From the IMG/VR virus record IMGVR_UViG_3300008954_003300, positions 1 through 35,679 of that record: a stretch of 35,679 bases of DNA; one strand, written 5' to 3'. The position numbers were made by a program, and so were the translations under genes. The notes beneath the pieces were generated by a model. That model saw nothing but the letters and a program-made list of their open reading frames with translations, had not been told where the DNA came from and searched no databases. How positions within the stretch are numbered: the stretch's first letter is position 1; each line of letters begins with the position of its first letter. This document shows, in pieces, positions 4,297 to 35,052 of this stretch. This stretch comes from a virus.

Positions 4297-4666
4297 AAAT
4301 CCTACGATATACGTGGCAGGCCCAATGAGGGGCCACGATGAATATAACTATCCTGCTTTTGACAGGCAGGCTCAGATTTTAGAAAAACAAGGTTGGACTG
4401 TTGTTAATCCAGCCGAAATGGATAGAAGTATATCTTCGCCAGAAAAATGCCCAATGGAGTTTAATCCATCTACAAATTATGATGACCAAGAATTTATGAG
4501 AGAAGCACTGCACAGAGACTTGGACCAGATATGCAACAATTGCACTGCGGTATACATGATGAGCGGGTGGGAAACTAGCAGAGGAGCCAAGGCCGAGTGG
4601 GCTACAGCAAAAGCTATTGGCATTGATATATATTACGAGGCCCCCTTGCCAAAGAATTATGAATGA
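4274..4666 (+). CDS. DUF4406 protein (nucleoside deoxyribosyltransferase-like fold)
   Basis: A 130-residue protein with the hallmark YVAGPMRG near residues 13-20 followed by YNYPAFDRQAQILEKQG and VVNPAEMD, then AVYMMSGWETSRGAKAEWATAKAIG at about 93-117. This is the DUF4406 pattern, common in phages and related in fold to nucleoside 2-deoxyribosyltransferases and SLOG-type nucleotide-binding proteins. The conserved Glu in the AKAEWATA segment is probably part of the nucleotide pocket. A role in nucleotide salvage or nucleotide-derived signals is likely but unproven. It sits inside the glycan cluster, overlapping genes on both sides by 23 and 8 bases. Confidence 0.8.
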   Translation: MNTCEKSRNPTIYVAGPMRGHDEYNYPAFDRQAQILEKQGWTVVNPAEMDRSISSPEKCPMEFNPSTNYDDQEFMREALHRDLDQICNNCTAVYMMSGWETSRGAKAEWATAKAIGIDIYYEAPLPKNYE

Positions 4667-5453: not shown

Positions 5454-5455
5454 GC

Positions 5456-8787: not shown

Positions 8788-9635
8788 TGAAAAACGGATT
8801 GTTGGGATTTGGTTATTGGGGAAAGATTTTATCAAGCAACATAGATTCTTTGACTGGACAAAAGCCAGTCGTGCATGATCCTCAGTGTGGAATTATTAAC
8901 AAGGAAGAGATTGGATTGTGCGATAATATCTTTATTGCTACCCCGGCTATTACTCACGACGAATTAGTATCTGATTTTTTGTCGAAAGGTAAAAATGTTT
9001 TTTGCGAAAAGCCGCTGTGCCTATCGTCCACTATGGCTAAAAATCTATACGAGATAAGCGAGGATAACAATGCGCATCTTTTTGTGGACTGGATATTTAC
9101 TTTTAATGATGCGGTAAATCATATCTCCCATTGCTACGACTCAGGAGAATACGGCAGCATCAGAAGCGTTCGGATGAACAGGCTAAATTCTGGACCAGAA
9201 AGAAAAGACACGTCCTCTAAGTGGGATTTAGCGTCGCACGACGTTTCTATACTTCAATACATATTTGATGAAACTCCCACCCATATAGACTGGAAGCTTT
9301 TCAGGCGCAATGACCGTAGTTTTTTTAGCGATACATGCGTCGGCATCATACAGTACCCATCTTTTGATGCAACTATAAATGCCAGCTGGGAGTATGGAAG
9401 AAAGGACAGGGAATGCGTGTTCGAATTTGATGCAGGATTCCTAACTTGGGACGATACGGTTAACAGCTTGCGTTTTAATGGGCAAGATATAGTTTTTCCT
9501 AAAACAAGATCTCCGCTTGAGAATTCCATAGAAACGTTTCTATCATTAGCAGACAAAGGCGATATGTCGAATCATGCTGCTCTTCAAAAGAAGCTTACAA
9601 CAGTAGTTACGGAGATACTTGAAAATGGAGAATGA
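8787..9635 (+). CDS. Gfo/Idh/MocA oxidoreductase, WbpB/WlbA-like
   Basis: A 282-residue NAD-dependent sugar dehydrogenase joined to the formyltransferase by TAATG. GLLGFGYWG at 4-12 is the nucleotide-binding loop, EKPL at 74-77 has the catalytic Lys75, and KWDLASHDVSIL at 145-156 has the His151/Asp147 pair, a wording typical of UDP-GlcNAc-uronate 3-dehydrogenases (WbpB, WlbA). Such enzymes oxidise C3 of a UDP-uronic acid to a ketone, which a DegT-family enzyme then aminates. It is somewhat shorter than family members (about 315-350). The adjacent aminotransferase and upstream 6-dehydrogenase fit this pathway. Substrate assignment is inference. Confidence 0.8.
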   Translation: MKNGLLGFGYWGKILSSNIDSLTGQKPVVHDPQCGIINKEEIGLCDNIFIATPAITHDELVSDFLSKGKNVFCEKPLCLSSTMAKNLYEISEDNNAHLFVDWIFTFNDAVNHISHCYDSGEYGSIRSVRMNRLNSGPERKDTSSKWDLASHDVSILQYIFDETPTHIDWKLFRRNDRSFFSDTCVGIIQYPSFDATINASWEYGRKDRECVFEFDAGFLTWDDTVNSLRFNGQDIVFPKTRSPLENSIETFLSLADKGDMSNHAALQKKLTTVVTEILENGE

Positions 9636-10800
9636 AATTTTATTTAATAATTTAGGCCTGCAGTGGGAAGCGATATCTGCTCCCGCCACAAGAAGGATTG
9701 ATAATCTTTTTAAATCCTCCTCGTTTATTAACGGACCTGACGTTTCTGAGTTTGAAAACAGCTTTTCTAAATATATAGGAGTTGATCATGCTTGCGGCGT
9801 TTCTAATGGAACAGATGCCATCAAGTTATGCGTACAAGCGCTAATAAACGAAAAATGTATTAATAGTCGGGGGAAGGTTGGGATAATAATTCCCGCCAAT
9901 ACTTTCATAGCAACTCTTCTGGGAGCTGAAATGGCAATTCCTCAGGCTGAATTTATTTTGGTAGATTGTGATGAATACTACCAAATTGATACTGGTCTTC
10001 TGGAAGATGCACTAGTGGAGCATAGAGAGAGTTGGGATGATTGTATTATTATTCCGGTTCACCTTTATGGCCACTCTTGCGATATGGAAAAGGTGATGGA
10101 ACTGGCTGACGATTTTGAATGCTGGGTTGTCGAAGATGGCTCACAGGCCCACGGTACTGTAGCTAGTATAGGACTGCATGAACTTAAGGTCGGATCAATC
10201 GGTCACTTAGCTGCCTTTTCAATGTATCCTGGAAAAAACCTAGGCGCCGCCGGAGATGCAGGGGTAATTACTACTAACAATTCAGCATTGTATGAATCTA
10301 TACAGAAATTAAAGAACTGGGGGTCTAGGGAAAAATATCACTACGATTTTAAAGGGTTCAATAACCGCCTAGATTCTATACAGGCAATAGTAGTAGACGA
10401 AAAATTAAAACACCTAGACCGCTGGAACCATATGAGGAGTCATATAGCCAATAAGTATAGTGAGGGGTTAAAAGACAGCGGAGTTATACTTCCCCAACAA
10501 GCGGACTATTGCCACCAACAAACTCACCATATATACCCCATAAGGATTAGTGTTAGCAATCGCGACAGCCTAATGGAGTTCTTGTCCAGCAATAAAATCC
10601 AATGCGGAATTCATTATCCGATACCCATTGAAGAAACCGACATTTATAAAAATAGTAAATGGCACAATAAAAATACTAGGCTTTTTTCTAGGCAAATGGT
10701 AAGCCTTCCTATGCATCCCTTTATGACTGATGGGGAAATAAACCGCGTAATAGATACTGTAACCCTGTTCTCTTCACCAAGGACCCCTGTCAAAAGTTAG
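9625..10800 (+). CDS. DegT/DnrJ/EryC1/StrS sugar aminotransferase
   Basis: ATG 9625 follows GGAGA (9611-9615) by 9 bases; an in-frame TTG at 9619 is less likely. The 391-residue protein has SNGTDAI near 60-66 for phosphate binding, EDGSQAHG near 170-177, and FSMYPGKNLGAAGDAG with the PLP-binding Lys204. The C-terminal YPIRI and GIHYPIPI elements complete a full-length sugar aminotransferase fold. It would add an amino group from glutamate to a keto nucleotide sugar, here probably the 3-keto product of the preceding dehydrogenase (WbpE/WlbC role). QdtB/FdtB-type chemistry on a dTDP-sugar is the main alternative, but no dTDP-sugar genes are seen. Last gene of the cluster, with 61 bases before the next ATG. 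Confidence 0.9.
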   Translation: MENEILFNNLGLQWEAISAPATRRIDNLFKSSSFINGPDVSEFENSFSKYIGVDHACGVSNGTDAIKLCVQALINEKCINSRGKVGIIIPANTFIATLLGAEMAIPQAEFILVDCDEYYQIDTGLLEDALVEHRESWDDCIIIPVHLYGHSCDMEKVMELADDFECWVVEDGSQAHGTVASIGLHELKVGSIGHLAAFSMYPGKNLGAAGDAGVITTNNSALYESIQKLKNWGSREKYHYDFKGFNNRLDSIQAIVVDEKLKHLDRWNHMRSHIANKYSEGLKDSGVILPQQADYCHQQTHHIYPIRISVSNRDSLMEFLSSNKIQCGIHYPIPIEETDIYKNSKWHNKNTRLFSRQMVSLPMHPFMTDGEINRVIDTVTLFSSPRTPVKS

Positions 10801-10861: not shown

Positions 10862-12790
10862 ATGTGCGACAAATTACCCACCTTATATCAAGAATTCATT
10901 CATTTATCTAGGTACTCTAGATGGCTTCCCGACAAGAACAGAAGGGAAACCTGGCCTGAAACCGTTGGTAGATATTTTGATTTCTTTTCGGAACATCTTG
11001 AAGAGGAGATGGGCTATAAGGTTAGTCAAAAAGAAAGAGCTGAGCTAGAAAATGCAGTACTCAACCTAGAGGTGATGCCTTCAATGAGAGCGTTAATGAC
11101 AGCAGGTCCTGCTTTAAAGCGTGACAATGTTGCTGGGTATAACTGCTCTTATGTTTCTTCGGCTAGGGTGCGGTCTTTTGATGAAATTCTTTATGTATTA
11201 ATGTGTGGCACAGGGGTTGGCTTTTCTGTTGAGAGAACTTTTGTAGAAAGGCTTCCAACAATTGCCGAAGAGTTTGAGAAAAGTGACACTACGATAGTTG
11301 TTCAAGATTCTAAGATAGGCTGGGCAAAGGCGTATAAAGAACTGTTCAGCCTTCTTATTGGAGGACAAGTCCCTAAATGGAACACGTCAAAAGTTCGCCC
11401 AGCTGGAGCAAGACTAAAAACATTCGGCGGGCGAGCTAGCGGGCCACAGCCCCTTGAGGACCTGTTTAAATTTACGGTAGACGTTTTCAAAAGAGCAAAA
11501 GGGCGAAAACTCACATCAATGGAATGCCATGACATTATTTGTAAAATAGCTGAAGTGGTTGTTGTTGGTGGAGTCAGGAGGTCAGCCCTCATATCGCTCT
11601 CTGATTTAACAGACGACAGAATGCGGGAGGCTAAGAGTGGACAATGGTGGTCTGCTGATCCTCAGAGATCCCTAGCTAATAACTCGGCCTGCTATAAAGC
11701 CAGACCAGAAATAAGCACGTTCATGGAGGAGTGGCTGTCCCTCTACAAGTCAAAAAGCGGAGAGAGGGGTATTTTTAACCGACAGGCAGCCAAAAATCAG
11801 TGCGAAAAATTTGGCAAGAGGGATCCGGGACATGATTTTGGAACGAACCCCTGTTCTGAAATTATATTAAGAGACCGCGAATTTTGCAATCTCACTGAAG
11901 TTGTAATCAGGGAATCTGATACTCCAGACGACTTGATGAGAAAAGTGCGATTGGCTACAATTCTTGGTACTTGGCAATCTACATTGACTAGCTTTAGGTA
12001 TCTGTCTAGTGACTGGAAAAAGAACTGTGAAGAGGAGCGGCTTCTTGGAGTATCTATGACTGGCATTATGGATAATGTTTTTACTAGCGGAAGAAAGGGT
12101 GATATAGAAACCCTGCTAGAGGGGTTGAGGGATCAGGCCGTTTCCACTAACAAAAAGTACGCTAAGACTTTGGGAATAAATAAATCAGCGGCAATAACTT
12201 GTGTCAAGCCCAGTGGAACCGTCTCTCAATTAGTTAATGCGGCCTCTGGCATTCACGCAAGGCACAATCCCTATTACATCAGAACAGTACGAGCTGACCT
12301 AAAGGATCCGTTGTGTCAGTTTATGATTGACAAGGGCTTTCCAAACGAGCCAGACGCAATGAAGCCTCAGCACACCGCAGTGTTTTCATTTCCCATGAAG
12401 GTACACCAGAAATCCATTTGTCGAAAAGACACGACAGCAATTGAGCAATTAGAACTCTGGTTAATTTATCAGCGCCACTGGTGTGAACACAAGCCGTCCG
12501 TTACGATTACTGTTCGTGAACACGAATGGATGGAGGTAGGGGCTTGGGTATGGAAGCATTTTGATGAGGTTTCTGGTATTTCCTTCCTCCCGCTGTCGGA
12601 CCACAACTATAAGCAGGCCCCATATCAAGATTGCTGTGAGTCTGCATATAAAAAACTATCGAGTAAACTTCCAGATAAAATTGACTGGACAGAATTAGGT
12701 AATTATGAGAAAGAAGACAACACTTCCGGTTCCCAGACATATGCTTGTGCTGGAGGATCGTGTGAGGTCGTAGATATAACAAGTGAGTAA
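10862..12790 (+). CDS. nrdJ: Adenosylcobalamin-dependent ribonucleotide reductase (class II)
   Basis: A 642-residue monomeric-type class II enzyme that reduces ribonucleotides to deoxyribonucleotides using B12. RYSRW near the N-terminus and YNCSYVSS (near 92-99) carry the first redox Cys. The active-site loop NPCSEIIL near 329-336 holds the radical Cys and Glu, and the second redox Cys lies in EFCNL. VKPSGTVSQL near 450 is the phosphate-binding loop. The tail CAGGSC supplies the reductant-shuttling Cys pair. The frame is closed by a TAG at 10841, so ATG 10862 is the first possible start, and it has no clear ribosome-binding site. No intein interrupts it. It feeds DNA synthesis without depending on oxygen but requires host B12. 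Confidence 0.95.
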   Translation: MCDKLPTLYQEFIHLSRYSRWLPDKNRRETWPETVGRYFDFFSEHLEEEMGYKVSQKERAELENAVLNLEVMPSMRALMTAGPALKRDNVAGYNCSYVSSARVRSFDEILYVLMCGTGVGFSVERTFVERLPTIAEEFEKSDTTIVVQDSKIGWAKAYKELFSLLIGGQVPKWNTSKVRPAGARLKTFGGRASGPQPLEDLFKFTVDVFKRAKGRKLTSMECHDIICKIAEVVVVGGVRRSALISLSDLTDDRMREAKSGQWWSADPQRSLANNSACYKARPEISTFMEEWLSLYKSKSGERGIFNRQAAKNQCEKFGKRDPGHDFGTNPCSEIILRDREFCNLTEVVIRESDTPDDLMRKVRLATILGTWQSTLTSFRYLSSDWKKNCEEERLLGVSMTGIMDNVFTSGRKGDIETLLEGLRDQAVSTNKKYAKTLGINKSAAITCVKPSGTVSQLVNAASGIHARHNPYYIRTVRADLKDPLCQFMIDKGFPNEPDAMKPQHTAVFSFPMKVHQKSICRKDTTAIEQLELWLIYQRHWCEHKPSVTITVREHEWMEVGAWVWKHFDEVSGISFLPLSDHNYKQAPYQDCCESAYKKLSSKLPDKIDWTELGNYEKEDNTSGSQTYACAGGSCEVVDITSE

Positions 12791-17280: not shown

Positions 17281-17722
17281 GGCCGAAATACAAGAGAAGA
17301 TGGCTGAATTTAAAAGAGGCCTGAAACTTGTCAATCTACAGATACCATCAGAAATAGAGTCAATACTAAGCCATGGTAGAGAGTACCTTAAAAAGACTCC
17401 ACGAGAAGACCTTTGTGTAGATTCAGTAAGGCTAGCGCAGTATAGCCTATACCTAAGGTCCGAGATGAACCGGCTTAAATCAAACGTGTATTGGTGCGAA
17501 GCCAATATTAACAGCATCATTGGTCGCGAAACCAACAATACTGAGGGGTATGGCCTAAAAGAAAAATCACTCGTGATAATAAGAAACGACCCCGTGGCTA
17601 GAGATCTTGAGGGAATTAAAACGCTTTGTGAAACACAGCTAATCTCTCTAGAGGACTTAGACAGGAAAGTGGACTTTATATCGTCCTGTATGAAAAATCT
17701 ATCCTTTGAAAGGAGAACATAA
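17267..17722 (+). CDS. Helical protein resembling UvsY recombination mediator
   Basis: ATG 17267 has GGAG at 17254-17257, 9 bases upstream, so the earlier in-frame ATG at 17243 is not preferred; 151 residues. The protein is almost all helical. It matches the order of T4 UvsY: an early [21 protein letters not shown] helix, a [20 protein letters not shown] turn and an [22 protein letters not shown] terminal helix. UvsY loads UvsX onto SSB-coated single strands as a hexamer. Length (T4 UvsY is 137) and the gene's place near uvsX support the call, but sequence identity is low. Confidence 0.55.
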
Positions 17723-18753
17723 TGAATGACCAAGAAACAAAATTAGATTATTGCGACGTACTAATACGGCCTAAGAGGTCAACCCTCTCATCTCGAAAAG
17801 AAGTAGATTTGTCTAGATCCTTTAAATTTAGAAACGGAAAGACTTGGACGGGAGTTCCTATTGTCGCAGCGAACATGGATACCGTTGGCACATTAGAAAT
17901 GGCAAGAGTGCTTACAGAGTATAATATGTTAACCTGCACAAGTAAGCATATCAACGACTGGGAGACAGATGGAGATTTTAAAAATCGTAATATCGCCGTT
18001 TCGTTTGGAATGGGAGAAGATGATGAGCAGTGGTTATTTTCTCATATGCAAGGATCAAAAGACTTCGTACAACATAAAGATTTCTTTTGCCTAGATGTGG
18101 CAAATGGCTACACGCAACGGTTTATTGATTATGTTAAGAATGTTCGTGAGATTTGGCCAGATAAAATTATTATTGCAGGGAATGTAGTAACAGGAGAAAT
18201 GGTAGAAGCCCTTCTTTTGGCAGGAGCAGATATAGTGAAAATTGGCATAGGCCCAGGGAGCGTCTGTACTACTCGCCTAGTAACGGGAGTAGGATATCCC
18301 CAGCTATCAGCGGTCGCAGAATGCGCCGATTCGGCTCATGGCATGGGGGGTTATATCATGGCGGACGGAGGGTGCGTCTGCACAGGAGATGTATGCAAAG
18401 CGTTCGGAGCTGGAGCTGATTTTGTTATGTTGGGGGGCCTGTTATCTGGACACGATGAGTGTGAGGGCGATGTTATTACAGATGCCGATAGCGGAGAGAG
18501 CCATAAGGTTTTTTATGGAATGTCTAGTGAAACAGCTATGAAAAAACACAACGGGGGCGTGGCTGTATACAGGGCATCTGAAGGCAAAACAGTTAAGGTT
18601 AAGTATAAAGGCCCTGTTTCTGACACTATTTCCAGTATACTGGGGGGTCTTCGTTCAGCTTGTACGTATGTTGGCGCTTCAAAAATAAAGTATTTACCCA
18701 AATGCACCACTTTTATAAAAGTTAATAGACAATCAAATGAGGTATACAAATGA
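17722..18753 (+). CDS. guaC: GMP reductase
   Basis: A 343-residue enzyme that converts GMP to IMP and ammonia with NADPH. The whole chain follows E. coli Gua[12 protein letters not shown] (12-22), AANMDTVGT (49-57), [10 protein letters not shown] (151-160), [11 protein letters not shown] with the catalytic Cys182, [35 protein letters not shown]...EGKTVK, and [12 protein letters not shown] near the end. It lacks the CBS domains and length of IMP dehydrogenase. GuaC is not a usual phage gene. Between recombination and helicase genes it may shift salvaged guanine nucleotides toward adenine nucleotides during infection. AAGGAGA precedes the ATG, and TAATG couples it upstream. Confidence 0.95.
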
Positions 18754-23032: not shown

Positions 23033-24016
23033 ATGAATATAGAATACGTCAGATCGTCGTCAGTAAATACATATGAAGGTTGTCAATTTCAATACTTCCT
23101 GGAATATGTATTAGGAATACCAAGCGCCTCTGGAAAGAAGGCGCTGCTCGGCACCATTGTTCACCATGTTTTGGAAATAATGGCCAGGGCAAAAAAGAAC
23201 AATAGAAAGCACGACTCATATACCGATCACGAAAATCTTCTTCGTATCTGTTGGGATAGATACATGAAGGAAGAGGGGCATAACTATGACATTAAAAATG
23301 CCGACTTGACATTCTGCAAAAAGACACTAAAAAAGGTTATAGACAGCCCGTACAATCCCCTGAATCTAAATGTTATTGATGTAGAAAAAAGATTTCAAAT
23401 TCCATTGACGACAGACGGCTTCAAGTTTGAGTATTACGATATAGTTAACAAGCTACAAAAAAGCGGATTTTATGAAATGAGGGGTACGTCTGATCTTGTT
23501 ACTGAGATTGATAGTGAAACCTTAGAAATAATAGACTGGAAAACAGGTTCCAGGAAAGACTGGAATACGGGCGTTTTAAAGGATTACGAATACCTGTCCT
23601 CAAAAGACATTCAAATAAGGATGTACGATTTGGCAATGTCCCTGATTTACCCTAAATATAAAACTAGGCTACTAACTGTTAATTTTATTAATGACGGGGG
23701 TCCATTTACAGTGACCTTTGATGATCAACAAAGAAAAGAAACCCTAGAAATACTAAGGACTAAAATCAACAAGATTAAATCTAACTGGCTACCAACTCGA
23801 CTAAAAGAAACAAAACCCAAAGATGCTCGGTGGAAATGTAAAAATGTATGCTTTTTTGGAAAAAACAAAACTAGTAGTGGATCGTGTTATTGTGATAACA
23901 TACATTCTTACATGATACATAATGGCATAGAAAAAACCATGGAAAGCGTTGCTAAAATAAGAGGGGAAATTAATGGGGACGGCGTGAAAACCTCTGATAG
24001 AAGGAACGTCTATTGA
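23033..24016 (+). CDS. RecB/Cas4-like PD-(D/E)XK exonuclease with Cys cluster
   Basis: A 327-residue nuclease. It begins SSSVNTYEGCQFQYFLEY with Cys17 in the usual C-x-x-x-F-x-L motif. GTIVHHVLE follows with active-site His44. MRGTSDLVTE (Asp154) and LEIIDWKTG (Asp168, Lys170) form the PD-(D/E)XK core, and QIRMYDLA near 194-201 is the Q-x3-Y motif. C269, C273, C285 and C287 near the end with Cys17 could hold a 4Fe-4S cluster, as in AddB and Cas4. It probably resects phage or host DNA ends during recombination. The stop overlaps the polymerase gene start as TGATG, placing both in one transcript. Confidence 0.83.
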   Translation: MNIEYVRSSSVNTYEGCQFQYFLEYVLGIPSASGKKALLGTIVHHVLEIMARAKKNNRKHDSYTDHENLLRICWDRYMKEEGHNYDIKNADLTFCKKTLKKVIDSPYNPLNLNVIDVEKRFQIPLTTDGFKFEYYDIVNKLQKSGFYEMRGTSDLVTEIDSETLEIIDWKTGSRKDWNTGVLKDYEYLSSKDIQIRMYDLAMSLIYPKYKTRLLTVNFINDGGPFTVTFDDQQRKETLEILRTKINKIKSNWLPTRLKETKPKDARWKCKNVCFFGKNKTSSGSCYCDNIHSYMIHNGIEKTMESVAKIRGEINGDGVKTSDRRNVY

Positions 24017-25899
24017 TGTCATATATCCCAATACATGTACACACTTGCTGGTCTCTGCTTGACAGCACTCTCTTAGTGTCTGACTTGGCCAAGAAGGCGG
24101 AAACTCTCGGGCTTCCAGCAGTTTGCCTAACCGATCACCATAACATTAAAGCGCTGGTGTTGTTTTTTCGGGAAATGAAGAACAGGGGGATAAAGCCCAT
24201 TGTCGGATGCGAACTTAATATCTTTAATGAGGATTCTAGTGGATTTTATACTGCAACTGTGTTGGCTAAAAACAAAAACGGATTAAAAAACATAGTTAAA
24301 TTGGTTTCCTTAGGAAACGAACCGCGTAATATTAGCTTGTTGGGGACGCCGTGCGTGTCTTTTGAAGAAGTCAGGCAGTTCTCTGGAAATCTAGTATGCT
24401 TAATAGGTGATAGCAGAAGCGAACTATATTGTTCTATATACGACAATCCGTCGCTTGCCTTACGAGCAAGCAACGAAGAAAACTGTAGGAAGCTTGTAAG
24501 GGGGAACTGGGAGGAGTGTTTTGATTCAGTACTCAAAAAGTACTCCAGCGTTTTTTCTGATACCCTTATTTTTTGCAATAAAAGCTCTGTTCCGTCTATC
24601 TCTCTTTTTGAAAAATGCGTATCTCATAAGACGGGGGGCGAGTACTTGCCCTCACAAAATATTCACTACCTAAACAAGGAAGATAGGGATCTGCATAGGC
24701 TTATTCTAAAATCGGGACTAGACCTCAAAAGAGAAAGCTGCCCCCTGGAGTCATACGAGGATAATAAAATATTTTTTACGAAGGAGTCTGAATGTCATTT
24801 GCCAGAATCAATAAGCGGAGGTGAAAGAACCCTTCAAATATTAGATCTGATTGAAGATTACGACATCCAAGAGCGACCCATTTTGCCTAAATTTAAAGTC
24901 CAAGGACACGCCATATTAAATGACCACGAATATTTAGTCGAGTCCTGTCGCGAAGGATTCAAAAAGAATGGCCTTGTAAAAGATCTTTCTGGAAACGATG
25001 AGTTAAAGAGGCTTTATTCAGATAGAATATCTTACGAACTAGGTGTTTTTGAAAATGCTGGAATATCTAGTTACTTTTTAATTGTTAAGGATCTAATTGA
25101 ATTTGTTCATGACAAGGGGCTTCCGGCAGACGTTCGTGGCTCTTCGTCGGGATGTATGGCGTCTTACCTGTTGGGCATATCTTCAATTGACCCCATGAAT
25201 CCAGATCCTACGCTGGGATACGCGCAGGAAAGAGAGCTGCCTTTTGAAAGATTTTACAATGAAGGTAGGAACACTGATGGGAATATATCCTTGGCCGATA
25301 TTGATATTGACGTTCCTCCTAATTTTAGAGATAATCTTATAGGCTACGCTCGAGAAAAGTATGGGCATGATTGCGTAGGGCATATAATTACACACTCTAG
25401 GTTCAAGGCTCGCGGGGCCATTAAGGAAGTGTTCAGGCTACTAAAACCATCGTCTAACTACTTTGATATCGCTAACGATATCACCAAGCACATGGTTGAG
25501 GAATCTAAGATTGCAGAAGAAATACTAGAGCGACAGCAAGATGACCCTGACTATGGAATATTGCGATGGAATGTGGATAATATTGAGTCTGTTGGAAACT
25601 ACTACGAAACATATAAAGACGCTTTTGACCTAGCTATGAAATTAGAGCAGATACCAAAAAATGAAAGCGTTCACGCTGCCGGAATAATTATTGCTGACCA
25701 GCCCCTGTATAACCTGTTTCCAATGAGATACTCATCTAAGCTAGACCAGATGATAATCGATATCGAAGGATCGGAAATAGAGTATATTGGCGGCGTGAAG
25801 TTTGATATCCTAGGGCTAGCAGCTTTGGAAAAAATGTATCAAATTGAAGAGATGATAAATAAATCAAAATCTAGTTCGGAGTTTGGAATACATGTCTAA
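24016..25899 (+). CDS. dnaE: DNA polymerase III alpha, N-terminal half (PHP + palm)
   Basis: Start ATG 24016 (TGATG junction; an in-frame TTG at 24013 also exists) gives 627 residues. A PHP domain covers about 1-250, with HVHT (7-10), LTDHHN (38-43) and VGCE (63-66), keeping several metal ligands lost in E. coli. The palm has LADIDIDVPPNF (Asp428/Asp430) and the third catalytic Asp597 in VKFDILGL. RGSSSGCMASYLLGI and HAAGIII are also conserved. The protein ends 30 residues after Asp597, exactly before the part of the fingers found in the gene at 27167. It must work with that half as a two-subunit polymerase. No intein sequence is seen at the break. Confidence 0.92.
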   Translation: MSYIPIHVHTCWSLLDSTLLVSDLAKKAETLGLPAVCLTDHHNIKALVLFFREMKNRGIKPIVGCELNIFNEDSSGFYTATVLAKNKNGLKNIVKLVSLGNEPRNISLLGTPCVSFEEVRQFSGNLVCLIGDSRSELYCSIYDNPSLALRASNEENCRKLVRGNWEECFDSVLKKYSSVFSDTLIFCNKSSVPSISLFEKCVSHKTGGEYLPSQNIHYLNKEDRDLHRLILKSGLDLKRESCPLESYEDNKIFFTKESECHLPESISGGERTLQILDLIEDYDIQERPILPKFKVQGHAILNDHEYLVESCREGFKKNGLVKDLSGNDELKRLYSDRISYELGVFENAGISSYFLIVKDLIEFVHDKGLPADVRGSSSGCMASYLLGISSIDPMNPDPTLGYAQERELPFERFYNEGRNTDGNISLADIDIDVPPNFRDNLIGYAREKYGHDCVGHIITHSRFKARGAIKEVFRLLKPSSNYFDIANDITKHMVEESKIAEEILERQQDDPDYGILRWNVDNIESVGNYYETYKDAFDLAMKLEQIPKNESVHAAGIIIADQPLYNLFPMRYSSKLDQMIIDIEGSEIEYIGGVKFDILGLAALEKMYQIEEMINKSKSSSEFGIHV

Positions 25900-26548
25900 T
25901 AAAAGAAATTTTATAGTATACGATTTAGAGACAAGTGGATTAAATCCAGAAAAGGGCGCTGAAATCGTTCAGATAGGCGCAATGGCATTGCAGTATGGAG
26001 ACTATGAAGTCCACGAAATTGGATCTTTTGAAATAACCGTAAAGCCCCTCAGCCCAGAGAAAGCCGACGATCAGGCAATCAGAGTAATAGGAAACGACCT
26101 TTGGAACAAAGCTCTCAATGAAGGTGTTCATCCAAAGACGGCGCTAAGAAAATTTCATCGTTATATAAGCGATGCGAACTGGTCCGGGAAATATTGGAGC
26201 GCCCCAGTAAGGGTTGGTTTTAATAATAACTCGTTTGACGATAAGTTTATGGAATATTGGATGAAGGAATATAAAATCATAGGGCAGAAGAAGGACGATC
26301 AGCCGTGGGCGCATTTTTCCCTAGATGTATACCCTCTAATGTTTTCTGTATTCGGAAGAGATAATCTTAAAAATAACAAGCTTGATACTTTTGCTGAAAT
26401 GCTTGGGATGGCTCGAGCCTCCAGCACGCATGACGCATTAGAAGACGTAATGATAACCGCTAAAATGTTTCAGAGATACATGAGGTTTTCGAACTTTCAA
26501 ATTAGACCCAAAATCTCACTGAAAAAGGAAAACCAAGATGACGTGTAA
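25892..26548 (+). CDS. dnaQ: DEDDh 3'-5' exonuclease (DnaQ/epsilon-like proofreader)
   Basis: ATG 25892 overlaps the end of the polymerase N-half by 8 bases; a TTG at 25883 is an alternative. The 218-residue protein has FIVYDLETSG (Asp11, Glu13), NNNSFDDKF (acid at 116-117) and STHDALEDVMITA (His180, Asp185), the full DEDDh set for two-metal exonuclease action. It probably removes misincorporated bases made by the split polymerase, as epsilon does for bacterial Pol III. It is embedded between the two polymerase genes, so the three products would be translated together. Confidence 0.9.
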   Translation: MSNKRNFIVYDLETSGLNPEKGAEIVQIGAMALQYGDYEVHEIGSFEITVKPLSPEKADDQAIRVIGNDLWNKALNEGVHPKTALRKFHRYISDANWSGKYWSAPVRVGFNNNSFDDKFMEYWMKEYKIIGQKKDDQPWAHFSLDVYPLMFSVFGRDNLKNNKLDTFAEMLGMARASSTHDALEDVMITAKMFQRYMRFSNFQIRPKISLKKENQDDV

Positions 26549-27164
26549 AATACCGTATCATATGATGATATCTGTTCTAGACCTAGCCCCAAGAGATCGG
26601 GTTTTTAGGGCCGTCCTAAATCCCCTCACATTGCAATATACCCCACTGAACATACTCCAGGTTGGGGCAATTGAGAAATTGGACCTCGCGTTTAAATATG
26701 GAAGTGGGTGGTCAGACATAACGTTTGCTTCCTACAATAGTTTGTTTGGAGGAGAGTTGACAATTGTAGACATCAATAAAGACCATTTAGAAAATTCCAA
26801 AAAGGTATTATCGGGATTTAATGCAAGTCATACTCTGGTGGAGGGGGATGCTCGGGATTTAATCGAAGAGAATTCGTCGTCTTTTGATCTGGTTTATCTA
26901 GATGGGAGTAATGATCCGGCAGAAACGAAAGAGCAGTATGACCTAATTGACAAGGACGCCACGTCGATAATTCTTATAGACGACTATAGCTTGAAGGGCA
27001 AAACTATAGTTCACGACGAAAGGTACTCTGGGCAAATACTGGGAGTGACAGATTTGGGGTTTTATGTTGGGATTAATCATACTGCTATGCAAAAAATAAC
27101 TGAAAAAATAAAAAATCCTGAGCAGAAAGTTATGGACGACTTATCTGTGGAAACCTTTGTATAG
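26538..27164 (+). CDS. Class I SAM-dependent methyltransferase-like protein
   Basis: A 208-residue Rossmann-like protein. NILQVGAIEKLDLAF is a modified motif I (normally E/DxGxGxG), LTIVDINKDHLENSKKVL is motif II, LVEGDARDLI and FDLVYLDGSN near 115-124 are the following acidic and strand motifs, and SIILIDDYSLKG resembles the SAM or metal site of the Methyltransf_24 group. Small-molecule or sugar methylation is likely but the substrate is unknown. It lies between the exonuclease and the second polymerase gene, overlapping the first by 11 bases. Its presence there is unexplained by replication. Confidence 0.68.
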   Translation: MTCKIPYHMMISVLDLAPRDRVFRAVLNPLTLQYTPLNILQVGAIEKLDLAFKYGSGWSDITFASYNSLFGGELTIVDINKDHLENSKKVLSGFNASHTLVEGDARDLIEENSSSFDLVYLDGSNDPAETKEQYDLIDKDATSIILIDDYSLKGKTIVHDERYSGQILGVTDLGFYVGINHTAMQKITEKIKNPEQKVMDDLSVETFV

Positions 27165-27166
27165 CC

Positions 27167-28723
27167 ATGACCTTGAATCTAAATCATATCTCACTAAAAA
27201 ACAAAAAGGCTTGGTCGCTGATCGAAAAGGGTCACACCAGCGGTGTTTTTCAATTAGAAGGCGAACTGGGAAAGCAGTGGGCTTCTAGGATTAAGCCTAG
27301 GAATCTAAATGAGTTGAGTGCCGTGCTAGCTCTTATTAGACCAGCGTGTCTAGAATCTGGCATGGCTGATCAGTATTGCAGGATAAAGAATGGACAAGAG
27401 CCTCCATTTAAATTTAATGATGCCGAGGTGGACAGAATACTAAAACCTACAAATGGGGTGTTGATTTATCAAGAGCAATTAATGAAGTTCGGTGGAGAGA
27501 TAGCGTGGAGCGATCTACCTAAGCTGGAAAGATTGGTTATTGTTGACAAGCTAAGAAAAGGCATAGGAAAAAAGGATTTAAAGATTCTCTCTGAATTAAA
27601 ATCAAAATTTATAGAGGGTTGTGTTCGCAATGGAAGAAGTAAAGATTTGGCCAATAAGCTGTTTTCTATGATTGAAAACGCTGGAAGATACGCTTTTAAT
27701 GATGCTCACGCAAAAAAATATGCCTTAATATCGTACAAAACTGCATATTTAAAAGCCAATTATCCATACGAATTCTATTCTGTCTATCTGACTTATTCTA
27801 GGTCTAGACAAAAGCCCAAGGAAGAGATTAGGAGCTTGGTGGGGGAGGCGAGAATGTTGGGAATAAACATTAACGGCCCCGAGATATCTATGGCCAATAA
27901 AGAGTTCTTGATCGAAAAAAGAGACCAGACGACATCTATATTTTTTGGTCTTTCCCATCTTAAGCAAGTTTCTAATAAAGATGTGGATGTAATGAGCAAC
28001 AACAAAGACCACGTCAGTAGCTTTGCGGGTCTTATTAGATTGCATTTTGATAAGTTGTCTTTTGACAAAAGAATAAGAAGCCTAGCGGTTGAAAGTCTTA
28101 TAAAGTGTGGGGCTTGTGACTCTTATGGTCTATCCAGAAGAGTGATGTTTGAAATATTTACGGTCATAAAATCTCTAACACCCAAAGAAATCGAGTTTGT
28201 AATGGGTTTAATTAAAAACGAGGGGGCTGAAACTGGTGTGGAAATTATATCTTTTATTAAAAAATGCTCCGAAGATCGCTGTGTACCAAAAAGACGCGAA
28301 TTGGTTTATTCGGAAGCAGAATCTATTGACCTCTCCGAAAAAGACTCTTCGGCATCTAGAGTTAGTAGCGAAAGGGATATTGCCGGAATAGAATTTACAA
28401 AGATATTTGCCACGCAAAATCATGGAACCAGCCTTACCTGCCAAGAGTGCTTTAGGCTTTCTAAGAATAGTCGAGGCAAGGCTGGACAAATTGCCGTAGA
28501 CGTTGGAGAGGTGATAACTTTAGTTACTAAAAAGGGAAAAAACCCTGGTAGCGAGATGTGCCAACTGATAGTTTCTGACAATACTGGAACTCTTCGTTTA
28601 GCCTGCTTTCCCGACAAATATAGAAAGTACAAAGACGCCATATCGGAGGGTCAGAAGTATATAATAAAAGTTAAAGGTACGGGTTCTGGCTGGTGTCTAG
28701 AAGATGTCAAAATATTAAAATAA
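27167..28723 (+). CDS. dnaE: DNA polymerase III alpha, C-terminal half (fingers + OB)
   Basis: A 518-residue protein continuing the polymerase chain where the first half stops: KAWSLIEKGHTSGVFQLEG aligns with the E. coli DnaE segment just after the palm. GVLIYQEQLMKF near 98-109, KLRKGIGKKD near 128-137 and YAFNDAHAKKYALISYKTAYLK near 178-199 form the fingers and thumb-adjacent core. A helix-hairpin-helix region follows (ESLIKCGACDSYG near 305-317). The end is an OB fold (EVITLVTKKGK...GTLRLACF) near 440-515. The last 90-odd residues of E. coli DnaE (tau-binding region) are absent. The usual cyanobacterial split-intein site (in the GYAFNDAH segment) is intact here. Confidence 0.92.
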   Translation: MTLNLNHISLKNKKAWSLIEKGHTSGVFQLEGELGKQWASRIKPRNLNELSAVLALIRPACLESGMADQYCRIKNGQEPPFKFNDAEVDRILKPTNGVLIYQEQLMKFGGEIAWSDLPKLERLVIVDKLRKGIGKKDLKILSELKSKFIEGCVRNGRSKDLANKLFSMIENAGRYAFNDAHAKKYALISYKTAYLKANYPYEFYSVYLTYSRSRQKPKEEIRSLVGEARMLGININGPEISMANKEFLIEKRDQTTSIFFGLSHLKQVSNKDVDVMSNNKDHVSSFAGLIRLHFDKLSFDKRIRSLAVESLIKCGACDSYGLSRRVMFEIFTVIKSLTPKEIEFVMGLIKNEGAETGVEIISFIKKCSEDRCVPKRRELVYSEAESIDLSEKDSSASRVSSERDIAGIEFTKIFATQNHGTSLTCQECFRLSKNSRGKAGQIAVDVGEVITLVTKKGKNPGSEMCQLIVSDNTGTLRLACFPDKYRKYKDAISEGQKYIIKVKGTGSGWCLEDVKILK

Positions 28724-28784: not shown

Positions 28785-29192
28785 ATGGCGAATTTTAACA
28801 ACGTAACACTACTGGGGAATCTGGTTGCAGATCCGGAATTAAAAGAAATCTCGGACGCAAATCCAGTTTCTAAGTTTAGGCTCGCGGTAAACAGAAAGTT
28901 TACTACAAAAAGCGGGGACAAGAAAAGCGATACACTTTATATCGACTGCGAGATGTGGGGTAAGAGGGCAGAGGCATTGCAGAAATATACCAAAAAGGGA
29001 GATCCTCTTTTGGTAAACGGGTTCTTAAAGCAGGACACTTGGGAAACCAAGGATGGCGAATATAGAAGCAAAATCTTGGTTTCAGTTCAAGACTTCGAAT
29101 TTATTAGTACCAAAGGATCAAGCTCTTCTGACGAGTCCGCAGGGGCATCGCCCGCCAAATCCGAACCTCAGCTTGAGGATGTACCCTTTTAG
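28785..29192 (+). CDS. ssb: Single-stranded DNA-binding protein
   Basis: A 135-residue bacterial-type SSB. The OB fold occupies about 1-105: NNVTLLGNLVADPELKEI, KFRLAVNRKF, LYIDCEMWGKRAEALQKYTKKGDPLLVNG, and SKILVSVQDFEFI. A Ser/Ala/Glu-rich linker leads to the acidic tip LEDVPF, which binds replication and repair partners. It is a bacterial-type SSB rather than a T4 gp32 type, so the UvsX system here works with a different partner than in T4. AGGAG at 28771-28775 precedes the ATG. Confidence 0.95.
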   Translation: MANFNNVTLLGNLVADPELKEISDANPVSKFRLAVNRKFTTKSGDKKSDTLYIDCEMWGKRAEALQKYTKKGDPLLVNGFLKQDTWETKDGEYRSKILVSVQDFEFISTKGSSSSDESAGASPAKSEPQLEDVPF

Positions 29193-29547: not shown

Positions 29548-31242
29548 GTGAGCAACCAAAAGAAAAGAATACTGCTGGTGGCAGAATTTAGCCAGCTTAA
29601 TACCGGTTTTTCGGTTATGAATAATGACCTGCTTATGAAACTTCATAAGACGGGAAAATACGAGTTGGCCGAATTTGCCAGCTATGTAAATGATGATGAC
29701 CCAAGGATTCATCAAATGCCCTGGAAGGTGTATCCAGTACAGCCATCCGAAAGCAATCAGCAAGAGACAGAAGCATATCAGCAAAACTATCAAACAGCCC
29801 AATTTGGATCCGAGAGGTTTGAAAAAGTTGTATTAGACTTTAAGCCAGATATTGTTTTTTCTTATAGAGACTACTGGCATGATGAGTTTATTACTAGGTC
29901 TCCCTACAGACACCTTTTTCACTATGTCTGGTCGGCATGCATCGATTCTGAGCCTCCGCGAGAAGAGTGGATATCTACTTTTTCTACTGTGGACACGGTT
30001 ACATCCTACACAGATTGGGGATTAAATGTACTACGAAATTATGGACGGGGACGAATTAATTGTGCTGATTTAAATACAATGCCGGGTGTTGACTTGGATG
30101 TATTCAAGCCCATGGATAAGGGGGAATGCAGAGAAAAGCTTGGGCTAGAAGCAAAAGCTAAAATATTCCTTACCGTAATGAGAAATCAGCCTCGAAAACT
30201 CTTTCCTGAAATGATTCGAGCCTTCATGAATGCCATAGATGAGTTATACAGGTCTGGCAAAAAAGAAGAAGCGGACAACTCCTACTTGTACCTACACACA
30301 AGCAACACAGATGTGGGATTTGATCTTGAGAAAGAAGTTATAAAGTATCAAGCTTCCAACAAGGTATTGTTCACGTATATCTGCGATGCTTGCAAGCACA
30401 CTTTCCCCTCCTTTAACAGGGGGCATTTGTGCCACTGCCCGTCATGTGGACAGTTTAATGCTCACACCGCCAACACTTCTGTTGGCCCCGACAGAGAGCA
30501 GATGGCCATTATATATAATTCCGCAGACATGTATCTCCAATCCAGTATAGCTGGGGCCTTGGAAATACCTATTATTGAAGCAAAGGCATGTGGCCTACCA
30601 GTTATCTCTTCTGAATATGCGGCGCCTTATGAGCTTAACTTGATGGGTGGAGTTTTTGGAACACTGCCCATAATAGGATTTAAGCAAGAAAGCGTAAGGG
30701 AGACTGGGCAACTCAGAGCAATAATTGATTGCGACAAAATAACGGACTATATCCTAGAGTATTTTAAGTCTGACCCGTCACATTTAATGCAGTTGTCAAA
30801 AGACAGTCTGGATACTGCCAAAAAGTATCATAATAACGACTTGACAGCAGAAAAGTGGATGTCTATTTTTGACGCAGTTCCTTCGTCTGACTATTCAAGA
30901 TGGACAAGCCCGCCACAAATGATACAAACAAACTTTAGTGAAATACCTCCCAATATGGATGACTCTTCTTTCGTAAAATACTGCTGCGAAAGATATCTAC
31001 CACCAAAGCATCAGCTAAGGTCGCTATACCCAGAAAAAGAAATCCTAAAAGATATGTATCTTAGGGCAGAAAAAAGTGAGCATAATGATGTTAGGCAAAT
31101 GGGTCGACAACATACGGTAAATGTTATTCAATCTGTTGTTGATAGGTATAACCATTTTGAGCAGCACCGATACAACAAATTAGTTTTAGAGCCAAAGCAA
31201 GAGCTTCTTGGGCCTGCAAATAATTATTTTAAGGTTATATAA
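29548..31242 (+). CDS. GT4-type glycosyltransferase with inserted zinc ribbon
   Basis: The start must be GTG 29548, because a TAA lies in frame two codons before and the first strand (KKRILLVAEF) follows directly; 564 residues. The GT-B donor domain has FLTVMRNQPRKLFPEM near 207-222 and ALEIPIIEAKACGLPVISSEYAAP near 337-360. Between them lies YICDACKHTF...HCPSCG, with C279, C282, C295, C297 and C300, a zinc-ribbon-like insert not part of ordinary GT4 enzymes. The last 180 residues are extra and charged. It probably transfers a sugar to a phage or host acceptor, with the ribbon helping recognition. AAGG overlaps the start region. Confidence 0.8.
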   Translation: MSNQKKRILLVAEFSQLNTGFSVMNNDLLMKLHKTGKYELAEFASYVNDDDPRIHQMPWKVYPVQPSESNQQETEAYQQNYQTAQFGSERFEKVVLDFKPDIVFSYRDYWHDEFITRSPYRHLFHYVWSACIDSEPPREEWISTFSTVDTVTSYTDWGLNVLRNYGRGRINCADLNTMPGVDLDVFKPMDKGECREKLGLEAKAKIFLTVMRNQPRKLFPEMIRAFMNAIDELYRSGKKEEADNSYLYLHTSNTDVGFDLEKEVIKYQASNKVLFTYICDACKHTFPSFNRGHLCHCPSCGQFNAHTANTSVGPDREQMAIIYNSADMYLQSSIAGALEIPIIEAKACGLPVISSEYAAPYELNLMGGVFGTLPIIGFKQESVRETGQLRAIIDCDKITDYILEYFKSDPSHLMQLSKDSLDTAKKYHNNDLTAEKWMSIFDAVPSSDYSRWTSPPQMIQTNFSEIPPNMDDSSFVKYCCERYLPPKHQLRSLYPEKEILKDMYLRAEKSEHNDVRQMGRQHTVNVIQSVVDRYNHFEQHRYNKLVLEPKQELLGPANNYFKVI

Positions 31243-31244
31243 GA

Positions 31245-32357
31245 ATGAAAGTAGCATATATTTCAGTATACAGAGACCAGACTGGCTATGGCAATTTTGC
31301 CCAGAATATGATTTTGGCATTAGATGCCGCAGGAGTGCAAGTATGTCCAGTTTGGATTACCTTATCAGGCACACCGAAGTCCTGTCACCCGAGAATAGAA
31401 GAGCTGGAAAGCAACTCCCCAGATAATGTAGATGTGGTAATACAACAGGTATTGCCATCACATTTTTGCAGAATTGAAGGGGTAAAAAATATTGGATTAT
31501 TCTTCTGGGAAACCACTCATTTTCGAGGGTCGGGATGGCAAGCGTCTTGCAATTTAATGGATGAGATATGGGTTGTTACCGAAGAGCAAAAGGACGCCTG
31601 TGAAAAATCAGGAGTAAGGGTTCCAGTAAAAGTAATAGACTCTCCAAAAGACTTTTCTGTTTACGAAAAAGAATATGACAAGCTGAGTATCGATACTTTT
31701 GTTGACGACACTTTTAAGTTTTATACAATATCAGATTTTAGTTACAGAAAAAATGTATTTGGATTAATCAACTGCTTCTTGTCGTCGTTTACATCGCAAG
31801 ACAATGTCTCTCTAATTATAAAAGGATTTGTTACCGGTCAGACATATGACGATTCTTTTAATTATCTAAAGTCGGCTATTCAAGAAATAAAAACCGGACT
31901 GAGAAGACCCGAGTGGTCTTACCCGCGAATTGTATTCGTTAACAAGAGATTCTCGGAAGCTGAAATGTGTTCTTTTCATGGCACATGCGACTGTTTTGTC
32001 AGCGCTTCAAGAGGAGAGGGAGATGGAATCCCCATGGTAGATGCGGCGGGATTTAATAATATAACGATTTCGCCAGGATGGAATGGACCAAAGAAGAACT
32101 TTGCAGATACGGACCACATATTGATAGATAGCTTAATAGAGAAGGGGGTGACTGGAATGTCTCACCAAATTGCTGGATTGTACAACTGGGACGAGACTTG
32201 GTTTGAGCCTTCGTCTTCCGATATAAGCTCTAAGATGAGGGAGGTTTATGAAAACCAAGACAAGTTTAAAGAATTGGCTGTGTCGTCCTATCCTAAACTC
32301 AAAAAAAGGTTTGATTTAGGTAAGGTAGGAAAAGATTTACTGGAGGCCATGTCTTAA
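31245..32357 (+). CDS. Glycosyltransferase family 4-like
   Basis: A 370-residue GT-B enzyme. VAYISVYRDQTGYGNFAQN gives the N-terminal Gly-loop. NIGLFFWETTHF near 82-93 and VVTEEQKDACEKSGV near 109-123 are typical of phage and bacterial GT4 members. The donor site has FKFYTISDFSYRKNV near 160-174, and VSASRGEGDGIPMVDAAGFN near 255-275, the equivalent of the E-x7-E element. It starts 2 bases after the previous gene and ends just before the next glycosyltransferase, so three transferases are made in series. Donor sugar unknown. Confidence 0.8.
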   Translation: MKVAYISVYRDQTGYGNFAQNMILALDAAGVQVCPVWITLSGTPKSCHPRIEELESNSPDNVDVVIQQVLPSHFCRIEGVKNIGLFFWETTHFRGSGWQASCNLMDEIWVVTEEQKDACEKSGVRVPVKVIDSPKDFSVYEKEYDKLSIDTFVDDTFKFYTISDFSYRKNVFGLINCFLSSFTSQDNVSLIIKGFVTGQTYDDSFNYLKSAIQEIKTGLRRPEWSYPRIVFVNKRFSEAEMCSFHGTCDCFVSASRGEGDGIPMVDAAGFNNITISPGWNGPKKNFADTDHILIDSLIEKGVTGMSHQIAGLYNWDETWFEPSSSDISSKMREVYENQDKFKELAVSSYPKLKKRFDLGKVGKDLLEAMS

Positions 32358-32358
32358 T

Positions 32359-33387
32359 ATGGACAACATAAGAATTATTACATCTAAAATAAACAGAGAA
32401 CCCAAAAAGAAAAAGTACAAAATACTGACCTTTCCAACCCATGAGGGCTATCAAACTCTATTGGATAAAACAGGACACACGTTTTATCTACTAAGTCTTC
32501 AGGGAAGAAAAGTGTGGGAGACAAAATATCGTCCGGTTCCAGATAACCATGAGGTGGTGCCGATTATATATGACGAATTAAGCGATGTAGACTTTATTTT
32601 TTCCCATGAGCGCTTTGGCCAACTTCAAACGGCAATGGAGATATCACAAAGAACAAGGCTTCCCATATTACACATGGAGCATGTCGAGCCTCAGGATGAT
32701 CGATGGTCTGAAGAGGATTCCAAGAATTTGAGATTGATGCATGGGGACATCAATATTTTTATAACTAACCACAATCGGAAAAGCTGGGGTTTCGAAAATG
32801 ACGGCCTAGTCATTCCTCATGGAATAGACACTGATGTGTTTTCCGGATGGTCTGGTTCAGATAAAAAATATGTTCTATACGCAGTAAACCAGCTTAAAGA
32901 CAGGGATTATTTTTGTGGTCATAAGAAATGGGAAGAGGTTCGAAATATAGTGCAAAAGTCTATGCCAAACGTAGAGTTTAGGCTGGTTGGAGATAACCCA
33001 GGCATAAGTAGGCCGATATCTGATGTTAATAATTTAGTAGAACAGTACAACAAATGCTCATGCTATATAAACACTTCTCAGCTTTCCCCTGTACCCATGA
33101 CTCTTCTCGAAGCGATGTCATGCGGATGTCCCGTAGTAAGCTCCGCTAAGCAGGAAATACCATCAATATTAAATGGGGATAATGGATTCTGCAGCAACGA
33201 TACTGAGGCAATGGCCAATAAAATAATAGAAATTCTAAATGATAACGAATATGCAAAAAGAATAGGAAACTCCGCACGGGAAACGGCGAAGCAGAGATTT
33301 TCTCTTGATTCCTTTGTGGATAACTGGAATAATATTTTTGATAAAGCTTACGACATTAGATTTGGTAAAGGAATAATTAATGATTAA
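32359..33387 (+). CDS. Glycosyltransferase family 4-like
   Basis: A 342-residue GT-B enzyme. After a basic start (KINREPKKKKYKILTFPTHEGYQ), HMEHVEPQDDRW and IFITNHNRKSWGF precede the typical VIPHGIDTDVF at about 151-161 that marks the start of the donor domain. YVLYAVNQLKDR, and CYINTSQLSPVPMTLLEAMSCGCPVVSSA at about 234-262, carry the E-x-x-x-C-G donor-binding pattern. The C-terminal helix ARETAKQRFSLDSFVDNWNNIF is standard. It overlaps the next gene by 8 bases. Probably acts on the same glycan as its neighbours. Confidence 0.85.
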   Translation: MDNIRIITSKINREPKKKKYKILTFPTHEGYQTLLDKTGHTFYLLSLQGRKVWETKYRPVPDNHEVVPIIYDELSDVDFIFSHERFGQLQTAMEISQRTRLPILHMEHVEPQDDRWSEEDSKNLRLMHGDINIFITNHNRKSWGFENDGLVIPHGIDTDVFSGWSGSDKKYVLYAVNQLKDRDYFCGHKKWEEVRNIVQKSMPNVEFRLVGDNPGISRPISDVNNLVEQYNKCSCYINTSQLSPVPMTLLEAMSCGCPVVSSAKQEIPSILNGDNGFCSNDTEAMANKIIEILNDNEYAKRIGNSARETAKQRFSLDSFVDNWNNIFDKAYDIRFGKGIIND

Positions 33388-33829
33388 AGTAAATTTACAT
33401 TGTGGCGAAAAAACTAGAGACAGATACCAAAACATGGACACAAGAAGTATTGAGTCTGATAACCTTAATTTGGTAGATGATTACTCTCTCTTGAAATACG
33501 GAGATGGAAGCGTAGAAGAAATTGTGGCGCATCCGGGTTGTCTTGAATCGACCCCTAGGGGTCAGATCGTGGACCTCGTTAAATCTTGGCACCGAAAAAT
33601 ATCTACAGGCGGAGTATTGAAGGTTAGCTTTTTGGATCTAAAAAAACTGACCAACGCATACTGCTATGATAGGGTCCAGACATCGGAAATGGAAAATGCA
33701 ATTGTAGGAATGCGTTCGTTTCATGACATGTTTGAAATCAGGACAGTGTTGATTTCACTGGGCTTCAGATTAAAGTATTGCGACTTTTCTATAGAGGACT
33801 TCATAGGAACTATTCATGCAGAAAAATAA
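33380..33829 (+). CDS. Degenerate methyltransferase-like protein
   Basis: A 149-residue protein patterned on small SAM-dependent methyltransferases found beside glycosyltransferases: VNLHCGEKTRDRYQNMDTR replaces the usual LNLGCG...NVD motif I region, LLKYGDGSVEEIVAHPGCLES replaces F.D.S.DEI...LEH, and SWHRKISTGGVLKVSFLDL matches W...L.PGG.L.I..PDL. The Gly-rich SAM loop is reduced (LHCGEK), so SAM binding may be weak or lost. It could be a shortened active enzyme or a scaffold. Overlaps of 8 and 14 bases tie it to its neighbours. Confidence 0.6.
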   Translation: MIKVNLHCGEKTRDRYQNMDTRSIESDNLNLVDDYSLLKYGDGSVEEIVAHPGCLESTPRGQIVDLVKSWHRKISTGGVLKVSFLDLKKLTNAYCYDRVQTSEMENAIVGMRSFHDMFEIRTVLISLGFRLKYCDFSIEDFIGTIHAEK

Positions 33830-34337
33830 AACACTTCCAATCTTTCTCCTAGACTCTGCTCCTGACTCCGACGAACTCAACAGCTTGTCCGCGCTTGAGT
33901 CGGACAGGGTTGTAGTTTTTGGTTTGTACGGAATAGAAGAGTCTTTTAAAATGGAGTCCATGTTGGAGGAAAAGCATAAAAATAAGGTATTCTTTGTTCA
34001 CATGTCCGATTCAGCATTTAAAAGAGCTAAGGCTGAGGAATTTTCTGACAAAGTAGACTTCTCTTTTTATCACTTTTTTTACGACATATTTAAGGTTGAC
34101 AAATTTAATTTTAAAAAGTCTGGCTTTACTCACTTGTCTTGGGTCAAGGGGTTAGATTTAGATAAAATGAATAAGATTATCAACACGACAGCTATAGCTG
34201 ACAAAGAAACTAGTCTTATTATAGATAACCCCGAGTCGCCCAACAGTGGGGGGTCTCTCATGGTGGGATCATTTGAACGTGTAATGGATAAGAATATCTT
34301 TGCAAGTAAAGATGAGGTAGTAACAAATGGCAATTGA
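33816..34337 (+). CDS. Unknown protein (173 aa)
   Basis: A mixed alpha/beta protein with strands LPIFLLDSAP, VVVFGLYG and VFFVHMS near 7-16, 32-39 and 58-64, which could be the start of a Rossmann-type or GT-like fold, followed by aromatic-rich FSFYHFFYDIFKVDKFNF and a C-terminal LIIDNPESPNSGGSLMVGSF. No catalytic pattern is recognised. It lies between the methyltransferase-like gene and a GT2 gene, overlapping both, so a part in glycan assembly is the likely setting. Confidence 0.6.
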   Translation: MQKNKTLPIFLLDSAPDSDELNSLSALESDRVVVFGLYGIEESFKMESMLEEKHKNKVFFVHMSDSAFKRAKAEEFSDKVDFSFYHFFYDIFKVDKFNFKKSGFTHLSWVKGLDLDKMNKIINTTAIADKETSLIIDNPESPNSGGSLMVGSFERVMDKNIFASKDEVVTNGN

Positions 34338-35052
34338 TGTAAGTATTGTGATTACTAATTATAATCATGAAAACATAATCGAAAAAGCCATAAAAAGCGC
34401 TATGAGTCAGGATTATCCAGAAGATATCTTTGAAATTGTAGTGGTTGATGATGGCAGCTCAGACTCCTCTGTATCGAGGATAAGGGAATGTGTACAGAGG
34501 CACAACGAAAGGGGCATATCGTTCTCCCTTATTGAAAAAGAAAACGGGGGTACTGCTTCAGCTAGAAATTGTGGGGTACAAAGCAGTCAGGGGAGATATA
34601 TAGGATTTTTGGATGGAGACGATGAGTATCTACCACAAAAAACAAAAATGTCCGTAGAAGCGCTAGAGTTTGGACCTAATATAGGTATTGCGTATTCTGA
34701 TTATATTACCAAGTGGAATGAGAACGAGCATAGTTTAACGATGAAGTTTCCTTATTCGTGGAATATGCTTTTGCATGAATGTATAATATCAACCAATTCT
34801 TTCATAACCAGAAAGGCTTGGGAGGACGTTGGGGGATTTGACGAAGAGATTAAAATTATAGAAGATTATGATTTATGGTTGAGAATTTGCTCCAAGGGGT
34901 TTATGGCTAGGCATATACCTCAGCACCTATTTATATACAACGAAAGCCCAAACAATAAAACGAACACAGAAAAAGCAAATGGAATGAAATTGTTTAATAA
35001 GGAATCTAAGCAGATAATCGAAAGAGCCTTATCGGGGCAATATTATGTATAA
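34327..35052 (+). CDS. Glycosyltransferase family 2
   Basis: A 241-residue GT-A enzyme. DVSIVITNYNHENIIEKAIKS (4-24) is the family opening, VVVDDGSSDSS (38-48) binds the nucleotide, GGTASARNCGV near 77-87 and FLDGDDEYL near 97-105 give the D-x-D metal site, and GGFDEEIKIIEDYDLWLRI near 173-191 carries the catalytic base region. It is inverting-type by family and probably extends a surface or protein-linked glycan. No membrane segment, so it acts in the cytoplasm. It overlaps both neighbours (11 and 8 bases). Confidence 0.92.
   Translation: MAIDVSIVITNYNHENIIEKAIKSAMSQDYPEDIFEIVVVDDGSSDSSVSRIRECVQRHNERGISFSLIEKENGGTASARNCGVQSSQGRYIGFLDGDDEYLPQKTKMSVEALEFGPNIGIAYSDYITKWNENEHSLTMKFPYSWNMLLHECIISTNSFITRKAWEDVGGFDEEIKIIEDYDLWLRICSKGFMARHIPQHLFIYNESPNNKTNTEKANGMKLFNKESKQIIERALSGQYYV

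Follow-up and report, generated by a model that had tools for sequence, protein, structure and literature searches.

The virus record IMGVR_UViG_3300008954_003300 of IMG/VR, analysed here over its whole length of 35,679 bases (the window), carries the gene for a DnaE-type DNA polymerase III (Pol III) alpha subunit as two separate genes, DnaE-N and DnaE-C, with a DEDDh exonuclease gene between them. We consider that an old lineage of tailed phages encodes its family-C replicase as two separate subunits, that is, as a two-subunit DnaE with a separate proofreader, and would place the probability of this reading at roughly 0.85. The division had been proposed in a preliminary description of the sequence; open reading frames (ORFs), Pfam and PHROG_405 matches and alignments to E. 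coli alpha all agree with it. The genes concerned are as follows.

24016–25899, + strand: DnaE-N, with PHP, palm, thumb and three catalytic Asp residues (428, 430 and 597); Pfam PHP and DNA_pol3_alpha; E. coli alpha 3–577; AlphaFold2 (AF2) model with a predicted local distance difference test score (pLDDT) of 87.3; best Foldseek match to Pol III alpha, E 1.4e-39
25892–26548, + strand: DEDDh 3'–5' exonuclease, presumed proofreading subunit; PF00929, 6.7e-16; PHROG_192, DNA polymerase exonuclease subunit; just before DnaE-C in nearly all relatives
26538–27164, + strand: class I methyltransferase-like gene, an occasional passenger; PF13578, 3.2e-6
27167–28723, + strand: DnaE-C, with fingers, HHH and OB fold; Pfam DNA_pol3_finger, 4.6e-34, and HHH_6; E. 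coli alpha 584–899; AF2 pLDDT 89.7; best Foldseek match to Pol III alpha, E 1.3e-21
28785–29192, + strand: single-strand DNA-binding protein (SSB); PF00436, 2.7e-27; directly downstream of DnaE-C in all close relatives

The two halves tile exactly on one DnaE and no conserved segment is lost, as had been claimed. DnaE-N is 627 residues long and DnaE-C 518, the latter continuing beyond its match to E. coli alpha into the OB fold; on PHROG_405 they cover positions 42–618 and 623–1078, respectively. DnaE-N matches the PHP (PF02811, 1.6e-28) and DNA_pol3_alpha (PF07733, 1e-54, profile positions 1–260 of 260) families, and DnaE-C those of DNA_pol3_finger (PF17657) and HHH_6 (PF14579), together with an OB match which lies under the Pfam cut-off (22.9 of 27 bits) yet is visible in the AF2 model. 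The features of a DnaE-type family-C polymerase (PHP, palm with three Asp residues, fingers, HHH and OB fold) are all present, but on two chains; the boundaries of palm, thumb, fingers, HHH and OB fold within the halves are the textbook ones for Pol III alpha.

DnaE-N stops 30 residues past Asp597, the third catalytic Asp, and the SGVFQLEG block of DnaE-C is reached after 24 residues. In the AF2 models, for both of which the top PDB structures are Pol III alpha, the break is the loop between the last helix of N (602–615) and the first helix of C (13–20). The preliminary description had supposed that assembly of the active site depends upon contact between the subunits. This holds in part: the fingers, with their deoxynucleotide and template contacts, are in DnaE-C, but all three catalytic Asp residues (invariant among 46 aligned N homologues) are in DnaE-N, so that sharing of the active site between the subunits is only partial.

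The break is not peculiar to this record. The C half recurs at 48–55% identity in 19 viral contigs. Thirteen of the 18 records searched whole contain a single separate N gene (50–57% identity, no internal stops), and the remaining five contigs stop upstream of C. Searching by pattern with only the N protein as query gave no matches; alignment-based searches found N homologues and many more loci. In 72 locus pairs of viruses, or 42 after removal of near-copies, complete N and C are each an open gene of its own, and each record has a single N and a single C. The order N–exonuclease–C, which it had been proposed to look for elsewhere, recurs in 70 of these 72 pairs, the exonuclease gene standing just before C. 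L156 and L160, the two most divergent of the split members, lack an exonuclease gene, and different genes stand between their halves. In close relatives N is separated from the exonuclease–C pair by approximately 4–10 kb that include several genes on the opposite strand.

In trees of 75 and of 30 rows, the split polymerases from uncultivated viruses fall together in a single clade (SH-aLRT 100 and 99, respectively) apart from the single-gene DnaE proteins of phages and bacteria; these trees are unrooted and alone are not proof that the split is derived. Both DnaE parts occupy one ORF in each of the 80 bacterial DnaE loci fetched. The split arrangement is broader and older than one phage. A terminase family match in 12 of the 17 records searched is consistent with tailed phages. 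Distances among N halves are strongly correlated with those among C halves (Pearson 0.958 for the 42 pairs and 0.950 for the close family), although shared ancestry alone would give the same.

The exonuclease retains its DEDDh motifs (YDLETSG, GFNNNSFDDKF and THDALED), which are also seen in aligned close homologues. Its likely start is the ATG at 25892, overlapping the DnaE-N stop by 8 bases, rather than the TTG at 25883. From its place in the gene order, we presume that it is the proofreading subunit joined to the polymerase. The metal-ligand positions of the PHP domain vary across the clade (His at position 7 in 19 of 46 rows and at position 9 in 24 of 46), which makes it more likely that proofreading rests on the separate exonuclease than on PHP. 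The preliminary description placed both the exonuclease and a class I methyltransferase-like gene between the halves. Both lie there, and the former is a conserved part of the arrangement, but the latter is not: it occurs in only 4 of 20 close-family C loci, with homologues between exonuclease and C only in L005, L010 and L020, and we reject it as a polymerase subunit because of this patchy presence. In L034–L041 a variable cassette of 4–10 kb, partly on the opposite strand, lies between DnaE-N and the exonuclease; its long genes include ones with a weak (below cut-off) match to a tropism-determinant N-terminal domain.

DnaE-N contributes the PHP, palm and thumb domains, among which are the three metal-binding Asp residues, and DnaE-C the fingers, HHH and OB fold. 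We propose that the two proteins would associate non-covalently through the natural palm–fingers interface to give one active polymerase. The exonuclease would join them as the proofreading subunit, probably on the PHP domain, like epsilon on alpha in E. coli.

It is conceivable, though in our judgement unlikely, that the halves are not one enzyme at all: DnaE-N might act alone, for instance as a PHP–palm regulator, while DnaE-C binds DNA, or one half might pair with the DnaE of the host. This would suit the members in which the N and C genes are far apart. It accords poorly with the joint conservation of the three catalytic Asp residues and the fingers in every pair, and with the presence of one N and one C in each record. 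Nor was another recognisable replicase found: PolA, PolB and beta clamp domains were absent from 22 virus records of up to 244 kb, and the clamp-loader delta-prime domain from 18 records. Judging from these searches, and as far as incomplete records allow, there is no recognisable replicase other than the split DnaE. Some considerations do weigh against a two-subunit replicase. The association of N and C is our inference, a point which also favours the separate-function alternative; the incompleteness of the records means that another replicase could be missed; and a canonical clamp-binding motif, which would bear on processivity, was not seen in most C halves. On balance we lean towards the wider proposition that in an old and widespread lineage of phages DNA replication depends solely on a core of three pieces, DnaE-N, exonuclease and DnaE-C, the halves being obligate, separately encoded subunits. 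If so, regulated assembly, subunit exchange or control of proofreading at the palm–fingers joint could be allowed.

Less probable still, and in our view very improbable, is that the halves are rejoined into one ordinary DnaE chain by a split intein, RNA trans-splicing or an intron. Introns are known in phage polymerase genes, and clear intein halves do occur in relatives (L177–L180 and L191), at a different site, the GPGRG/SAAG motif, where they provide a positive control for intein detection. At the palm–fingers break, however, no intein motifs were found at the edges. In most members N ends some 8–25 residues past the last palm helix and C begins a few residues before the fingers, which is too short for intein halves; some split lineages have a longer C head, likewise without intein motifs. 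The break lies in a variable loop and not in a conserved motif, where inteins and introns usually insert, and Rfam searches of the window and of 22 further loci gave no intron. In close relatives the halves are 4–10 kb apart with opposite-strand genes between them, and therefore neither a common message nor a frameshift or other recoding can join them. The site at which cyanobacterial DnaE is interrupted by its intein is intact here, as had been noted, and reads RYAFNDAH with Ala at +1; splicing at this site needs Cys at +1. Because the palm–fingers break is genuine, has no intein and is conserved in relatives, assembly of the two subunits without splicing, which the preliminary description had surmised, is the best inference.

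An assembly error or a decayed gene in one contig, to which fragmented bacterial DnaE genes have in some cases been attributed (sequencing or assembly errors; PMC3919608), is refuted by the present data: the same break recurs in tens of independent contigs, where the frames are intact, the active sites do not vary and a gene separates the two parts, as well as in the complete genome of an isolate, Rossellomorea phage phiT1. Neither an assembly break nor intein motifs at the edges, the findings which the preliminary description regarded as contrary to it, was encountered, the halves being separate genes in all 72 pairs and the edges, in most members, too short for intein halves.

On closer reading, L162–L169, L187–L189, L191, L201 and L177–L180 were rejected as further simple splits. 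Among them are the loci with split inteins and others (L163, L187 and L178) with a break at the PDID motif and an extra N-terminal domain. L177–L180 (e.g., L177, 2459–4730) combine split-intein halves with a bare palm–fingers break, and L191 (2596–7473) has split-intein halves in DnaE at GPGRG/SAAG; all are outside the close family. In L162–L167, L169, L187–L189 and L178 (3106–3984) DnaE is broken just before the catalytic PDID, and the second part has an extra N-terminal domain of about 80–110 residues; this break resembles the cut described for the minimal Pol III of jumbo phages. In Bacillus phage Jayan (PQ299153; L290, 2986–6393) dnaE is annotated as two genes with a PDID break and approximately 270 bases between them. 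This break is probably an intron, with no Rfam match at the curated threshold. Some split lineages (L065–L081, L082, L086 and L088) have a conserved Cys-containing extension at the N-terminus of the C half, F[DPS]CGC.F, before the fingers, which is possibly metal-binding.

Phage Pol III alpha in two separate proteins has been described from jumbo phages of group 2.2, which have a minimal split form whose parts are thought to reassemble (PMC7824862). That enzyme retains only the core catalytic and template-binding parts and has no PHP; the cut falls within its catalytic domain and separates the NTP-binding part from the Mg-binding part, its genes are distant from one another and a PolB is encoded alongside (PMC7824862). 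Compared with this published description, the polymerase of the window has PHP, is cut between palm and fingers and has an exonuclease gene between its halves, and no PolB is seen in the 22 records. Rossellomorea phage phiT1 (PV767480) has separate dnaE genes, gp20 and gp18, which are broken in the same palm–fingers loop as here, but with a 49-codon ORF between the halves instead of the exonuclease gene. In trees phiT1 falls outside the split clade, although a common origin with it is not rejected (approximately unbiased test, p-AU 0.357).

Cyanobacterial DnaE is likewise specified by two genes, but there the cut is at the YCFN site and a split intein rejoins the parts; in the window the YCFN-type site is intact and there is no intein at the break. 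A survey of bacterial Pol III alpha (PMC3919608) mentions cyanobacterial sequences split by inteins, as well as fragments that are put down in part to errors. Other phages also have a replicase in two ORFs, but of other polymerase families: the PolA (family A) of OM43 phages, where an intron is suspected (PMC10580990), and the PolB of phage MIJ3, where an intein is reported (PMC6892783). The E. coli Pol III core (alpha–epsilon) and PolC share these alpha domains and likewise pair the polymerase with a DEDDh proofreader, but E. coli alpha and PolC are one chain each, unlike the two chains here, and the exonuclease of PolC is inserted in the PHP domain rather than encoded between two alpha genes. 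A literature search, in which few subscription journals were covered, returned no description of a split DnaE with the N–exonuclease–C arrangement. What is new is a full-length, PHP-bearing, two-chain DnaE whose proofreader is encoded between the halves; a split Pol III alpha was already known from jumbo phages, and the loop break from phiT1.

To our knowledge bacteria have their replicative family-C polymerase as a single chain unless an intein splits it. A two-chain form that is stable and conserved over great evolutionary depth would show that a replicase can have its palm and its fingers on different subunits. The break offers structural and split-polymerase studies a natural place to cut, and makes it possible to test directly how the Pol III active site is assembled. 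Annotation pipelines may label such genes as fragments.

In the window the polymerase genes are part of a replication module on the + strand, composed of a UvsX/RecA-like recombinase, a DnaB-like helicase, a primase, a deoxynucleotide kinase, a PD-(D/E)XK nuclease, DnaE-N, the DEDDh exonuclease, the methyltransferase-like gene, DnaE-C and SSB. From the PD-(D/E)XK nuclease gene through DnaE-C adjacent genes overlap or almost touch, an operon-like layout. Elsewhere the window encodes a ribonucleotide reductase, of the B12-dependent type to judge by a weak match to the insertion domain, and a gene of the IMP dehydrogenase/GMP reductase family (PF00478, 2.7e-70), at 10862–12790 and 17722–18753. 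Clusters of glycosyltransferases, a nucleotide-sugar epimerase and an aminotransferase flank the replication module (29548–35052 and 3250–10800).
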